Shown here: positions 23,263 to 29,564 of the stretch, in pieces
Numbering within the stretch: the first letter of the stretch is position 1
Layout: the number at the start of each line of letters is the position of its first letter
Virus record (IMG/VR): IMGVR_UViG_3300031758_008194
Span: 1 to 29,684 of that record
Length of the DNA stretch: 29,684 nt
From: a virus
Strand: one strand, 5' to 3'
The notes under the pieces: generated by a model
Seen by the model: the letters and a program-made list of their open reading frames with translations, nothing else
Told to the model about the DNA's origin: nothing
Database searches by the model: none
Translations under genes and position numbers: made by a program

Positions 23263-24026
23263 TTTATAAAATTATATAATTCGTTTCCAATAAGCTCATA
23301 CCCTTTTACATTAGGATGCTGAGTGCTTCTGGTATCCCAATTTTCATTATACTCCCAATAAGTTGAATCAGTTCTTTTTATTAACCAATCCCTAAACGTA
23401 TCCTTCTTATATCCCCAATAATTTTGTGATTTAATTAAATTGGTTTTATCATATTCAGGTATTATTCCCAAAAACATATCTTCAATACCATCACATAAGA
23501 CGTATTTTATTTTATAATGTTCTAAAAATGATTGCAGAAATATAATATAATTTTGATTTACGATTGAGTAGTATAAATCATCATATAAATTAGTTAGCCA
23601 AAATTTTTTATAATCTTCCATAAAAAAATCATAATAACGATTTTCAGTTTGAGTTGATGTAAAAAATCTATCAGGTGTTTGCATTAGATGTTTAGTGCTC
23701 CAACTTAACCACTCTCCCTTTGGGCCGTGAGGCATGAAGGGTAAATAATCTCTTAATGATGAACTCCACATTACAACAACTAAATCATTTTTAGTAGTTA
23801 TACCATTTTTAACATCATCTATAATTTGATTGAAAATTTTATTATTTGGATTTCCACTAATACCATTATTTTCATATGGTAGATTTAATTTATTAGCCAA
23901 AAAACTTACCCAACTATTTTCTTTTTGGTAAGCCATCTTTTCGTGTTTAGAGAGGGTATCTTCGATTTCTCTATTACAACCCTCTCCAATAGTCCAGCTA
24001 TCACCGTATGCAACTAATCTTTTCAT
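23259..24026 (-). CDS. SGNH/GDSL hydrolase-like protein (3 of 3), in the carbamoyltransferase cassette
   Basis: This 255-residue protein begins KRLVAYGDSWTIGEGC, block I with nucleophile Ser in GDSWT. About residue 54, ENNGISGNPNNKIFN resembles blocks II and III (Gly and Asn of the oxyanion hole). WSSSLRDYLPF follows near 88. Close to the end TQHPNVKGYELIGNEL is block V, with His as the catalytic base. It is the most complete of the three SGNH-like proteins here. The start overlaps the carbamoyltransferase stop by four bases and its own stop overlaps the glycosyltransferase start, so the three are probably made together. A role in adding or removing an acyl group on the same glycan or base the neighbours modify is inferred from context only. 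Confidence 0.78.
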   Translation of the reverse strand: MKRLVAYGDSWTIGEGCNREIEDTLSKHEKMAYQKENSWVSFLANKLNLPYENNGISGNPNNKIFNQIIDDVKNGITTKNDLVVVMWSSSLRDYLPFMPHGPKGEWLSWSTKHLMQTPDRFFTSTQTENRYYDFFMEDYKKFWLTNLYDDLYYSIVNQNYIIFLQSFLEHYKIKYVLCDGIEDMFLGIIPEYDKTNLIKSQNYWGYKKDTFRDWLIKRTDSTYWEYNENWDTRSTQHPNVKGYELIGNELYNFIK

Positions 24027-25708
24027 TTTTTTGTCAAAACATAATTCTCTATTACCAATATATCTAATCCTATATCCAAAAATGTTTTTATTGCAGTTTC
24101 GGGATTCATAATCATAGTTTGGTCTTTTACATTAAATGATGTGTTTAAAACTATTGGATAACCATTCTTTTTTTCTAATGCTTCCAATAATCCATACACC
24201 CTTTCACATTGCGTTTTCTTTAATGTTTGTATTCTCGCAGTTCCATCAATATGGGTAATAGCAGGTAATTTACCTCTATATTCTTTTCTTACTGAAACGA
24301 TTTGATTCATATAAGGGACTTCTTTATCCCATTCAAAATAGAAGGTTTTAGCCTCATCTTTTACTATTGGAGCAAATGGTCTAAACCCTTCTCTTTTTTT
24401 AACAATTTGATTGATTCGACCTTTCATTGTAGGATTCTTTGGGTCAGCAAAAATAGAACGATGGCCCAATGCTCTAGCTCCCAACTCCAATCTACCTTCG
24501 AACCAACCAACAACTTTTCCATTTGAAATTTCAGTTGATACCAAATCGATAATTTCATAATCAGATAATTTTTTATATACTAATTTATTACTATAATTTT
24601 TTAATAATTGGAAAATATACTCATTTGAAAATTTTGGCCCTAAATAAGGATTTGTATTATTTCTTCTTTCTGTGTTCTTACCTCTATAATATGAATTAAG
24701 GCAAGCTCCAATTGAAGAACCCGAATCCGATGGTGAATATGGAATCCAAACATTTTTAAATCCTGTCTTTTTGCTTATTTTTCCGTTTGCAGTTCCGTTA
24801 TAAGCACAACCACCTCCTAACACCAAATTATCACATTTTGTTTGCTTATGTAATTCTTTTAATAAACGAAAAAAATACATTTCATAAATGAATTGTACTG
24901 TTGCCGCTAAATCTTTATGTTGTTGTGTTAATTCTTCATTCGGTAATCGAGGTAGAAGGTTTAAATGAGTTGAAAGATTTGATGTGAACATTACCTCATC
25001 ACTTTTATGGTAATTGAACATCTTCATATTCAATTTATAGATGCCCTTTTTAGATGGGTATATAATCTCTCTAAACTTATCTATAAATGTACGAGGGTTT
25101 CCATAAGGTGCTAACCCCATTACCTTATATTCACCCTCATTTGGTTTAAATCCTAAAAAGGCAGTAAAGGTTGAATAGAACATACCTAATGAATGTGGGA
25201 AAATAGTAGAATCTAATTTTTCCCAATCATTACCTTCTGCTTTTGCTAATACAGTAGTTTCCCATTCTCCTACACCATCTACACTTAATACGGCTGCCTC
25301 ATCAAATGGTGAAGTGAAATATGAATAACCAATATGTGAATCGTGATGTGAATTAAATTTTATTTCCGCATTTGAAAATAAAAATTTGAACTGATTCTTT
25401 AAACCCAAATATTGTTTTAACCCCTTTACACCAAATTTAAATGCATCTTTTATTTGCCAATTTGATAAACACATTGAAACAACTCTATGTGTTTTTACTA
25501 ATGGATTTTCATAAAAACAAACCTCTTCAATTTCTTCAAAGGCTATTTTTGATTCATTCATTATCCAATTTATTGATTTATGTGGAAATGAACTATCATG
25601 CTTTATACCACTAAATCTTTCTTCCTCTACTGCTAAAATTACCTTCCCATCCTTCACTAAACATACTGAACTATCGTGGTAAAAGCAGCTTATTCCTATA
25701 CTAATCAT
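24023..25708 (-). CDS. Carbamoyltransferase, NodU/CmcH/TobZ family
   Basis: This 561-residue protein is full length for the family. The N-terminal YrdC-independent kinase-like half opens ISIGISCFYHDSSVCLVKDG, VEEERFSGIKHDSSFP, with H11 in the conserved HDSS. SHHDSHIGYSYF (H121, H122, H125) and SVDGVGEWET (D144) match the metal-binding residues of TobZ. The second half has LVLGGGCAYN, WIPYSPSDSGSSIGACL, and FEGRLELGARALGHRSIFAD, then GFRPFAPIV, the strongest family signature. By family it transfers carbamoyl from carbamoyl phosphate, via carbamoyl-AMP, to a hydroxyl of a sugar or related acceptor. It lies three bases after the gp55-like gene and overlaps the SGNH gene by four. All key motifs look intact. 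The acceptor is not shown by sequence: a modified DNA base and a surface or virion glycan are the main options. Confidence 0.95.
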   Translation of the reverse strand: MISIGISCFYHDSSVCLVKDGKVILAVEEERFSGIKHDSSFPHKSINWIMNESKIAFEEIEEVCFYENPLVKTHRVVSMCLSNWQIKDAFKFGVKGLKQYLGLKNQFKFLFSNAEIKFNSHHDSHIGYSYFTSPFDEAAVLSVDGVGEWETTVLAKAEGNDWEKLDSTIFPHSLGMFYSTFTAFLGFKPNEGEYKVMGLAPYGNPRTFIDKFREIIYPSKKGIYKLNMKMFNYHKSDEVMFTSNLSTHLNLLPRLPNEELTQQHKDLAATVQFIYEMYFFRLLKELHKQTKCDNLVLGGGCAYNGTANGKISKKTGFKNVWIPYSPSDSGSSIGACLNSYYRGKNTERRNNTNPYLGPKFSNEYIFQLLKNYSNKLVYKKLSDYEIIDLVSTEISNGKVVGWFEGRLELGARALGHRSIFADPKNPTMKGRINQIVKKREGFRPFAPIVKDEAKTFYFEWDKEVPYMNQIVSVRKEYRGKLPAITHIDGTARIQTLKKTQCERVYGLLEALEKKNGYPIVLNTSFNVKDQTMIMNPETAIKTFLDIGLDILVIENYVLTKK

Positions 25709-27001: not shown

Positions 27002-27550
27002 TTACATTATAGTATATCCATTATCGATATACTTTTGTATGTGTTTATATTTAATTTGCTCAATCAACCCATCGGGTGATTTTGCCATAACCAACTGATT
27101 TCTTTCATATTTTACCTGCGATACAACAGGTCTATTTACATTTCTATCCGCAATCGTAATACCATTTAAGCTATCAATCATTTGTTGAGCATAAATCGTT
27201 TCGTTTAATCCTTCTTTATCTTCTTCAGTTCCTTCGAAAATAACCAAGCCTAAATTATCTGATTGGACTTCAACTCTTACTGCCCTATTAACATATCTAT
27301 ACTTTCTTAAATCATCAAATTCCGAAACTTCTTGTGACAAGATAGATTCGTTTGAATACTTTAAGATAGTTGGATTGATTAATAATAAAGGAGTTTCAGA
27401 ATTAATTACAAATGCTCTAAATGGTAACCCAATTGATTGTGTCGATGCAGCGTAAAAGTTATTTTTTTTACAATAAGAAATTAGCCGCTTTCTAATTACC
27501 TCCTCATCAGTTTTATTGAATGGAGTTGATTCAATTTTTTTTAATTTCAT
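27002..27550 (-). CDS. Peptide deformylase-like protein lacking the metal ligands (probable pseudoenzyme)
   Basis: The 182-residue protein keeps the deformylase fold pattern but not the catalytic centre. Motif I (normally GxGLAAPQxG) is FYAASTQSIGLPFRAFVIN at 32-50, keeping the Gln (Q38). LLLINPTIL follows as in the family. Motif II (EGCLS) is replaced by SQEVSEFDD with no Cys. Motif III (QHEIDHLNG) is QQMIDSLNG at 122-130: both His ligands are lost (Q123, S127), the catalytic Glu is Met (M124), while Asp126 and the LNGI-x-DR frame remain. So all three metal ligands and the general base are missing. By family deformylase removes formyl from new proteins; this one should not. A regulatory, scaffold or ribosome-binding role is an inference. 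It is the first gene of the sigma-factor operon, 13-20 bases downstream of a Bacteroidetes-type promoter. Confidence 0.75.
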   Translation of the reverse strand: MKLKKIESTPFNKTDEEVIRKRLISYCKKNNFYAASTQSIGLPFRAFVINSETPLLLINPTILKYSNESILSQEVSEFDDLRKYRYVNRAVRVEVQSDNLGLVIFEGTEEDKEGLNETIYAQQMIDSLNGITIADRNVNRPVVSQVKYERNQLVMAKSPDGLIEQIKYKHIQKYIDNGYTIM

Positions 27551-27600: not shown

Positions 27601-27870
27601 CTATTCCTTATTTTTTTTATGTGTAATCCAATAGTTTACAGCATTTTGGTCATTAATCCATTTATTTTTATCACTCCAATCAAAACTAGGTCTAGCATAA
27701 TATGGTAACATATCTTTGGCTACTAATGCTCTATTTGGATGTGCAGTAAATTTATCGATTAATCCATCTCCATCGGTATCATATCCATCTATTGAGCCAT
27801 CTCCATCTAAATCAATACCTCTTCTACTATAATCTCTTTGTAAGGAATTTAAAACTATATCTTCAAAGAC
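27601..27870 (-). CDS. C-terminal extension read in the -1 frame (calcium-binding repeats), no start codon of its own
   Basis: A 89-codon open stretch runs from a GTC codon at 27870 to a TAG at 27601-27603. It carries GIDLDGDGSIDGYDTDGDGL then IDKFTAHP: two DxDGDGxxD motifs 11 residues apart, as in EF-hand-like, dockerin or thrombospondin type-3 calcium-binding loops. The rest (AKDMLPYYARPSFDWSDKNK, WINDQNAVNYWITH) is ordinary-looking protein. In this frame no ATG, GTG or TTG occurs before the motifs; the frame is closed by a TGA upstream of the slippery run. It is therefore most simply a -1 frameshift extension of the membrane protein (346 + 89 = 435 residues), or the fused end of a gene split by a homopolymer error. 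An internal ATG (residue 53 of the extension) would lose the calcium motifs. Confidence 0.72.
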   Translation of the reverse strand, partial: VFEDIVLNSLQRDYSRRGIDLDGDGSIDGYDTDGDGLIDKFTAHPNRALVAKDMLPYYARPSFDWSDKNKWINDQNAVNYWITHKKNKE

Positions 27871-28907
27871 TTTTTTTTTAAAGATTCTTCATATCGTTCT
27901 TTAGCTTCAATTAAAGCATCAACGGGTTCGGTAGGCGTGTTTATTGAATCAAAGAATACTTCCGCATCCTTTTCAGATTGTAGAATATTTTCTACTATTG
28001 GTGGGGTTTCTTCTTCTTTTGATAAAATTTTTCCATTAAAATTGGTATTTTGTGAATTATTTTCCACTAAATCCTCTTTTTTATCACCATACACCTCATA
28101 TAAACCTAATTTCTGATCATTTTTCATCATTTCGGTTAAAATCTCTTTTTGCTTACGCTTTTTATCGGTAATCAACCCATTAAATGCTATTATAAGTGCA
28201 ACTGCCAACGGATCAAACACAAAAACTATGATAAAAATGAAAAATTTTACCACATTATTAAGGGAAACATCAAATGCTTCAGCTACAAATCGAAATCCAC
28301 CAACTTCTCTCTCTAAATCGATGTTTTTGTTCTTAATGTTGTTGATTGAATCTAATGCAACGTTGTTCTGAATGGTTAATTCATCTATTCTTTTCGATAT
28401 TTTAGTAATTTCTGAATCCGCATTACGAACCATTTGGGAAAGACGTGATGTTGAACCATTTCTTTCCACTACTTTAGAAATGTTCGCCTCCTGGGAGTTA
28501 CGAATGTTTTGCTGATTGGTTAATTGAGTTGTGTATCTTTCAATCTCTTTATCATTTTTATTGATTTGAGTTTGAAATACTGCAACATCTCTTTCAATTT
28601 TTTGTAATTCTAAATTTTGTTGTTGGAAGGCATTGGAAAGGTATCCAAAAATACCAGCAGATGTAATTAACATAAGAATACCTACTGATAAAGTAAGATA
28701 CCATTTATTAAATCCATGTATTGAATCCCACATTTGCTTTAAGTAGGTTGCAGCAACCAATTTGGCAAATTCTAATGAACCTGCCATCACCATTACTGAT
28801 AATGATGCTCCAGCAAATAATACCCCTAAACCTGTAACTGAAAAATATGCAGCACAACCTGCTACCAAAATTGCTGAAAAACCTACTAAGATTTTTAACC
28901 AATTCAT
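27855..28907 (-). CDS. Multi-pass coiled-coil membrane protein (zero-frame product)
   Basis: The zero-frame product has 350 residues and four predicted membrane helices. Two lie in the N-terminal 60 (ILVGFSAILVAGCAAYFSV; then GVLFAGASLSVMVMAGS), a third is at about 70-92 (LTLSVGILMLITSAGIFGYL), and the fourth is at about 218-245 (FFIFIIVFVFDPLAVALII). Between the third and fourth, ~95-210 is a long heptad coiled coil, probably in the periplasm or cytoplasm depending on orientation. The tail is polar and ends in KKKSLKI. I know no assigned function for such phage proteins. The last codons lie on an A9 run. A -1 slip there would replace the last four residues by an 89-residue calcium-binding-type extension. 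It follows the 58-residue gene by one base under a late-type octamer. Confidence 0.83.
   Translation of the reverse strand: MNWLKILVGFSAILVAGCAAYFSVTGLGVLFAGASLSVMVMAGSLEFAKLVAATYLKQMWDSIHGFNKWYLTLSVGILMLITSAGIFGYLSNAFQQQNLELQKIERDVAVFQTQINKNDKEIERYTTQLTNQQNIRNSQEANISKVVERNGSTSRLSQMVRNADSEITKISKRIDELTIQNNVALDSINNIKNKNIDLEREVGGFRFVAEAFDVSLNNVVKFFIFIIVFVFDPLAVALIIAFNGLITDKKRKQKEILTEMMKNDQKLGLYEVYGDKKEDLVENNSQNTNFNGKILSKEEETPPIVENILQSEKDAEVFFDSINTPTEPVDALIEAKERYEESLKKKSLKI
27870..27876 (-). other. Putative -1 ribosomal frameshift site A AAA AAG within an A9 run
   Basis: On the minus strand the zero frame reads TTA AAA AAA AAG TCT; the heptamer A AAA AAG is the classic dnaX-type slippery site. 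A -1 slip after AAG gives GTC TTT GAA, the exact start of the 89-codon open stretch. The full run of nine A residues lies at 27871-27879. A possible UCUUUG/CAAAGA stem lies just beyond it, but it is weak and too close to the slip to be a convincing stimulator. RNA polymerase slippage on the A9 run would give the same fusion. Confidence 0.6.
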
Positions 28908-29171: not shown

Positions 29172-29564
29172 TTATCCAACTTTTAGCGAAAGTTTTTTAG
29201 GTTTAGATTCTTCTTTTCTTTCAACAATGAATGTCAAGATACCATTCTTAACTTCTGCTTTAGCACTTCTACCATCTAAATCTTTACCCAAAGTAATTCT
29301 TTCATCGATGTTAGCAACTAATTCAGTAAATGGTGTTTTATCTTCACCTTTTTTTGCTTTTACTTCTATTTTGTCTTCATAACAATTAATCTCAATGTTT
29401 TTCGGGTCATGCCCTAAAACTGATAATGCAATAAATGCTTTATCATCTTTTACCTCAACCGCAAATTTTGAGGGAACATAGGTATGAGAATAAGTTTCCC
29501 ATAGCGGGGTTTTGTCTGCAACCATTAATTTGTCAACGAATCTGTCGAAATCTGAATAGAACAT
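29172..29564 (-). CDS. hsp20: Small heat-shock protein, Hsp20/alpha-crystallin family
   Basis: This 130-residue protein shows the alpha-crystallin domain from about residue 30 to 125. VPSKFAVEVKDDKAFIALSV and GHDPKNIEINCYEDKIEVKA give the beta2-beta5 strands. DERITLGKDLDGRSAKAEVK, then NGILTFIVER is the conserved A-x-x-x-N-G-x-L-x-(I/V) region that ends the domain. The N-terminal arm (FYSDFDRFVDKLMV) is short, as in phage and cyanobacterial-phage members. By family it holds unfolding proteins, ATP-independently, in the cytoplasm. Here it could help fold or protect phage capsid or tail proteins, or guard against host stress. It is single-gene, with its own terminator at 29117-29146. The next promoter begins right after, so it is separate from the membrane-protein unit. 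Confidence 0.92.
   Translation of the reverse strand: MFYSDFDRFVDKLMVADKTPLWETYSHTYVPSKFAVEVKDDKAFIALSVLGHDPKNIEINCYEDKIEVKAKKGEDKTPFTELVANIDERITLGKDLDGRSAKAEVKNGILTFIVERKEESKPKKLSLKVG

Follow-up and report, generated by a model that had tools for sequence, protein, structure and literature searches.

The 29,684-base virus record analysed here (hereafter the window), in which baseplate wedge genes are present, raises the question of whether one phage gene specifies two membrane proteins, given that a 350-codon gene on its minus strand ends over a run of nine A's and that the -1 frame stays open beyond this run. On balance we think it rather probable that the run is a programmed slippage site, by which a single phage gene would yield its membrane protein in two forms. 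Zero-frame decoding would give a 350-residue anchor, and a slip on the nine A's, most likely by RNA polymerase or else by the ribosome, would in effect cause one more A to be read; the resulting shift to -1 would append a tail of 89 residues that contains two DxDGDGxxD loops (346 + 89 = 435 residues in the predicted long form). The fraction of slips would set the ratio of short to long form. In fused relatives with A9-A11 before the tail, normal reading would give the long form and a slip the short form. From comparison of sequences we infer the occurrence and level of slippage as well as the use of both products.

The proposed slip site and the tail frame

The 3' end of the 350-codon gene reads ...GAA TCT TTA AAA AAA AAG TCT TTG AAG ATA TAG, and the short form terminates in ...LKKKSLKI (Table 1). 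A preliminary description of this DNA had reported a gene ending over TTA AAA AAA AAG TCT, an 89-codon continuation in -1 with two DxDGDGxxD motifs, the lack of ATG, GTG or TTG in that frame ahead of the repeats, and a stop in the same frame just 5' of the A run. All of this holds: the continuation was recovered by re-reading the frame from G27870, and the lack of start codons was confirmed on an identical copy (L002). The upstream TGA means that the tail frame opens at the A run, and all 22 split loci listed in one scan have an equivalent stop 12-36 nt before the run. The -1 frame of the window contains DLDGDGSIDGYDTDGDGLID, and the identical tail, with the same A9, is found on five other IMG/VR contigs from five different metagenomes (L002-L005, L161).

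Table 1 Features of the locus, with positions in the window except in the last row
Feature	Position	Strand	Basis and remarks
Zero-frame gene, 350-aa membrane-anchor protein (short form)	27855..28907	(-)	ATG at 28907, stop TAG 27855-27857; tblastn relatives in phages
Conserved slip-site 14-mer TTAAAAAAAAAGTC (slippage predicted)	27868..27881	(-)	Nine A's at 27871-27879; same in 21/21 split relatives among matches listed
-1-frame tail, 89 codons	27604..27870 (from G27870; stop 27601-27603)	(-)	dN/dS, alignment with fused tails, AlphaFold mean pLDDT 87.9
Two DxDGDGxxD loops, putative Ca2+ ligands	27754..27813	(-)	Sequence and alignment; putative function
Conserved C-terminal motif PYYARPSFDW..KWINDQNAVNYW	27628..27705	(-)	Alignment; partly present also in repeat-less relatives
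-1-frame stop TGA upstream of run	27889..27891	(-)	Ends 18 nt 5' of G27870 (read on identical copy L002)
Second DxDGDG gene	L449:691-1389 in G001; L450:641-1294 in G007	(-) both	Tail-profile matches also in G004, G008

In the -1 frame the tail is under purifying selection, with a median dN/dS of 0.24 and a range of 0.05-0.41 (164 usable pairs of 171, from 19 split tails, L093 being left out); fused tails gave 0.20 where an A run is present and 0.31 where it is not. The putative ligands D20, D22, D24, D28, D31 and D35 are invariant in 47 aligned tails, a chosen subset of 12 split and 35 fused.

Codon choice at the site bears on both frames. The Lys columns at the run are AAA in 54/54, 54/54 and 29/29 rows, and some less-filled Lys columns away from the run are likewise all AAA. 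In these genes Val is encoded by GTC in 3% of cases and Lys by AAG in 19%, yet the slip site invariably has both. Its G is a silent third base of Lys when read in the zero frame and opens the Val codon in -1. Its C occupies a silent position in -1 and a non-silent one (Ser) in the zero frame. This combination of a C constrained in the zero frame with a G constrained in -1, and with rare codons fixed, suggests that the end of the short form matters too.

Were the tail instead translated separately, by re-initiation near the stop of the short form, the position of the zero-frame stop just inside the tail frame would suit. However, 15 of 19 split contexts offer no ATG, GTG or TTG in the tail frame ahead of the repeats, the remaining four have one TTG or GTG each, and the invariant A9 would be left without a reason; we give re-initiation a very slight chance.

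Split, fused and repeat-less relatives

Six scans of viral contigs in IMG/VR yielded 161 distinct gene ends among the matches listed, 13 loci in which the gene runs off its contig having been dropped beforehand; the family is larger than this. Twenty-one of the listed genes are split (20 with the tail in -1, together with L093, whose contig ends 25 codons past the run), 64 have fused repeat tails and 75 are without repeats. The preliminary description had looked to homologues for a verdict, and had reckoned with relatives devoid of any trace of the extension; although 75 of the 161 listed lack the repeats, 21 are split at the same slippery site and 64 have the extension fused in frame.

All 21 split genes listed carry exactly TTAAAAAAAAAGTC in the same phase, and the flanks of the site vary, with 7 forms in the six bases upstream and 8 in the six bases downstream. 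After the run the zero frame of split genes ends in S*, SLKI*, SMNL* or SLNLI*, and further on in L174. A run of at least nine A's occurs at the corresponding position in 0 of the 75 repeat-less relatives listed. Two long A runs within one linker were observed in nine split loci (L072-L076, L090, L092, L173, L174); their upstream run resembles that of fused relatives, the second being the slip site.

The preliminary description had also cautioned that a base missing from the assembly would look the same. Homopolymers are indeed error-prone, and most relatives listed have the C-terminal region in frame, as might be expected of a sequencing or assembly error or of a recently broken gene. Yet exactly A9 recurs within one 14-mer in 21 distinct sequences and on at least 31 contigs (from a tally of 89 split loci against contig names), the tail is under purifying selection, and the split state appears in several anchor backgrounds. 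On these grounds assembly error and gene decay are rejected, their probability being negligible. As a separate observation, the tail of one fused relative (L041:7117-7314) goes out of register after the repeats, possibly through a mutation or a sequence error.

Among the 64 fused repeat tails listed, 36 are preceded by a run of A9-A11 (A9-C in 17, A10-G in 12, A11-G in 5, A10-C in 1 and A10-T in 1; L041 is not counted here), and 28 have no run of nine or more, from which it follows that the run is not always needed by the family. In 33 of the 36 genes with a run, a shift to -1 would reach a stop after two codons; in 2 others the stop would come after one codon, and in the last it would be immediate. 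This regularity may stem partly from the E-[IT]-[DN] motif, from amino-acid conservation or from recent ancestry. To judge from the reading frames, both arrangements, split or fused with a run, should give the anchor with and without the tail.

The locus L095, which adjoins a clade of split genes, has A10 GTC at the site and is fused, a natural instance of the earlier statement that A10 would fuse the frames. It also bears on reversible DNA phase variation, in which the tail would be turned on or off by genomic changes between A9 and A10: no other natural A10 at the slip site occurs among the matches listed, and assemblies represent a consensus, hence minority variants would be hidden. Nevertheless, run lengths are the same in 61 of 79 near-identical pairs, the close fused pairs of unequal run length that were read differ by substitution (A9C to A10) rather than by an indel, and no split gene among the matches listed has another run length. 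Phase variation therefore appears improbable to us.

A quick anchor tree (113 of 128 distinct proteins, without the last two of the six scans, and with one very long branch, L231) places six changes of the split state, all six forced by starred branches, and nine changes between run and no run. The changes of the split state indicate that tails and runs have been exchanged between anchors. As run and tail travel together by recombination, the 21 split and 36 fused genes are not independent events, and the changes need not be independent gains. Further afield, 13 distant phage records were found as relatives by tblastn, and the three that were read (Flavobacterium phage immuto, Pelagibacter phage Mosig and LR756508) are without the repeats and show no run of at least nine A's in the gene. 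One scan (with A2) found no relative in cellular genomes. The baseplate protein is 40-41% identical to its best phage matches, those in Microcystis phage Mel-JY01 and Flavobacterium phage immuto.

Polymerase slippage and ribosomal frameshifting

Conservation of the length of a 9-A run among homologues is the yardstick for purposeful slippage given in the excerpted part of one source (PMC1088944). In the present family a run of at least nine A's lies at the overlap of the ORFs with its length conserved (exactly A9 in 21 of 21 split genes listed), the downstream ORF is protein-coding by dN/dS, alignable, and fused in 64 homologues listed, and such runs are avoided in other ORFs near the family gene.

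This avoidance was gauged on 1,111 non-family ORFs (698,850 nt), mechanically called ATG ORFs of at least 100 codons near the family gene rather than whole genomes. They contain 13 A9 runs and 0 longer ones, against 40.1 A9, 14.1 A10, 7.6 A11 and about 1 longer expected by synonymous codon shuffling; for runs beyond A9 the comparison is thus 0 observed with about 23 expected. Set against this background, the presence of exactly A9 at all 21 split sites listed exceeds chance. In the 164.5 kb record G002 (L092), A9 was matched three times over both strands, two of these being inside the family gene; other records have more A9 as well as A10 and A11 runs, counted over whole records, coding or not. 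Six of the 13 background runs fall in the last 8% of their ORF (L014, L017, L050, L052, L054 and L138), where a slip would cost little, and in L138 and L052 the run is followed by an off-frame stretch of about 200 codons that may be a neighbouring gene.

If, instead, ribosomes shift to -1 at A AAA AAG in a programmed manner, by tandem re-pairing of tRNA-Lys, a homogeneous mRNA would suffice for both proteins. All 21 split genes listed have this heptamer, of the form X XXY YYZ, unchanged and in phase, AAG is fixed at the site despite its low share of Lys codons, and A AAA AAG is described as an efficient -1 site in E. coli in an excerpt of PMC4066793. Against this, the run of the 36 fused genes closes with AAC, AAA or AAT and is 9-11 long regardless, and the G may instead be kept by the Val codon of the -1 frame.

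Nor is a stimulator apparent. Pseudoknot-free folding of 19 split contexts found no downstream RNA structure beyond that of shuffles (mean z 0.28 over 70 nt, and -0.29), as the preliminary description, which thought the stimulator unconvincing, had anticipated, and among the matches listed an SD-like element lies upstream in 2 of 21 split genes. Unstimulated frameshift sites exist, and a missing stimulator lowers the probability of frameshifting without excluding it. The 60 nt upstream have a mean z of -0.92 in the 19 contexts, with L008, L009 and L072 below -3; an upstream RNA stimulator is not claimed, since the strong values are confined to 3 of 19 contexts and are inconsistent.

Taken alone, ribosomal frameshifting strikes us as possible but doubtful. 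We favour RNA-polymerase slippage as the probable source of the long form, since the runs have a floor of nine A's, the next base varies and no RNA structure stands out downstream; we rate it some two to three times as likely as ribosomal frameshifting, and both may act. The earlier proposal of a -1 programmed frameshift or slippage stands as regards a slippage site, and leans towards polymerase slippage and away from a stimulated dnaX-type ribosomal site, given the missing downstream structure, the rarity of SD-like elements, and the fused relatives that have a run of at least nine A's followed by differing bases.

A broader reading, on which we are evenly divided, is that of a slippage switch whose polarity flips among the members of a phage gene family. 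One anchor gene would exist in two states, either split at A9, with the tail gained by a slip, or fused with a run of A9-A11, with the tail lost by a slip. In this way a mix of tailed and tailless membrane protein would be maintained as tail modules are exchanged by recombination, in genomes whose other genes avoid A runs of nine or longer; within the infected cell the tail may respond to Ca2+.

The protein and its precedents

The preliminary description had taken the tail to bind calcium. Its DxDGDGxxD loops, putative EF-hand or thrombospondin-type-3-like Ca2+-binding repeats, retain their acidic positions throughout the 47 aligned tails, in keeping with that class. No Pfam family reached its cut-off, EF-hand_5 scoring 13.8 bits against 25.9 and nothing matching in the L036 tail, and it is from the motif that we infer Ca2+ binding. 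No PDB sequence or fold match was found for the AlphaFold tail model. For L036, a fused homologue modelled with a mean pLDDT of 69.1, there is no PDB match at E<=0.001, just helical toxins and transporters at low TM, and the 7 viral structural matches at E<=0.001 are uncharacterised or nameless.

The tail is probably cytoplasmic, as judged from a Lys/Arg-rich segment after the last hydrophobic stretch; our guess is that it is Ca2+-responsive or binds a partner, its dose being set by slippage. Phages that infect several different hosts encode distant relatives of the anchor, and those relatives that carry an annotation are called hypothetical. Functions suggested by family searches, namely an Rz-like spanin (phrog_739, 38 of 60 members, E<=0.01), tape measure and HrpB2, were set aside, as the matches are weak and lie largely over a coiled coil.

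Two further observations concern other genes. A second phage gene (217-232 aa, with hydrophobic segments seen by eye) has a DxDGDGxxDGxDxDGDG-type stretch near its C-terminus, and no PHROG match was found for it. Neighbouring genes in the window resemble those for a peptide deformylase (27002-27550), a Nol-like carbamoyltransferase (24023-25708) and an Hsp20-type heat-shock protein (29172-29564).

If the proposal is correct, this is a comparative case of programmed slippage in a phage gene other than the tail chaperone, the natural variants A9, A10 and A11 and the two polarities make the nine-A threshold testable, and ORF callers will overlook the tail where the gene is split. Neither the gene nor the switch was found described among the matches listed in open-licence PMC full texts, which falls short of proving its absence.

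Known systems, compared here through excerpts of their sources, share parts of this anatomy. In phage CPt10 the methyltransferase gene CPt10_0091 resembles ours as a virulent-phage gene broken in a poly-A tract, with restoration by slippage suggested by its authors, but it is a single gene and a suggestion, without a conserved two-product arrangement (PMC2853527). The phage tail-chaperone G/GT likewise has a short product and a -1-extended one in a set ratio; that system, however, is ribosomal and serves tail assembly, and our searches suggest no protein relation (PMC5009743). Genes of IS elements share a conserved 9A in the ORF overlap, yet encode transposases rather than a membrane protein with a family of fused homologues, and dnaX of Thermus thermophilus has nine sense-strand A's on which polymerase slippage gives two products, although the slip there gives the shorter product whereas that of the window gene would give the longer (PMC1088944).

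The closest precedent in anatomy, among the systems so excerpted, is tssM, likewise a membrane protein with a C-terminal domain and an A run (A11 in tssM1) just 5' of a stop, and likewise found in both polarities, as slipping gives the long form of tssM1 in Citrobacter rodentium and the short form of tssM3 in Yersinia pseudotuberculosis (PMC4256274). Slippage was shown experimentally there, whereas for the phage gene it is deduced; moreover, tssM is a secretion-system gene, to which our searches indicate no protein relation. In C. rodentium the ratio of the two forms matters, and while such sites are rare among tssM genes in that account (PMC4256274), both polarities recur across a single phage family here.
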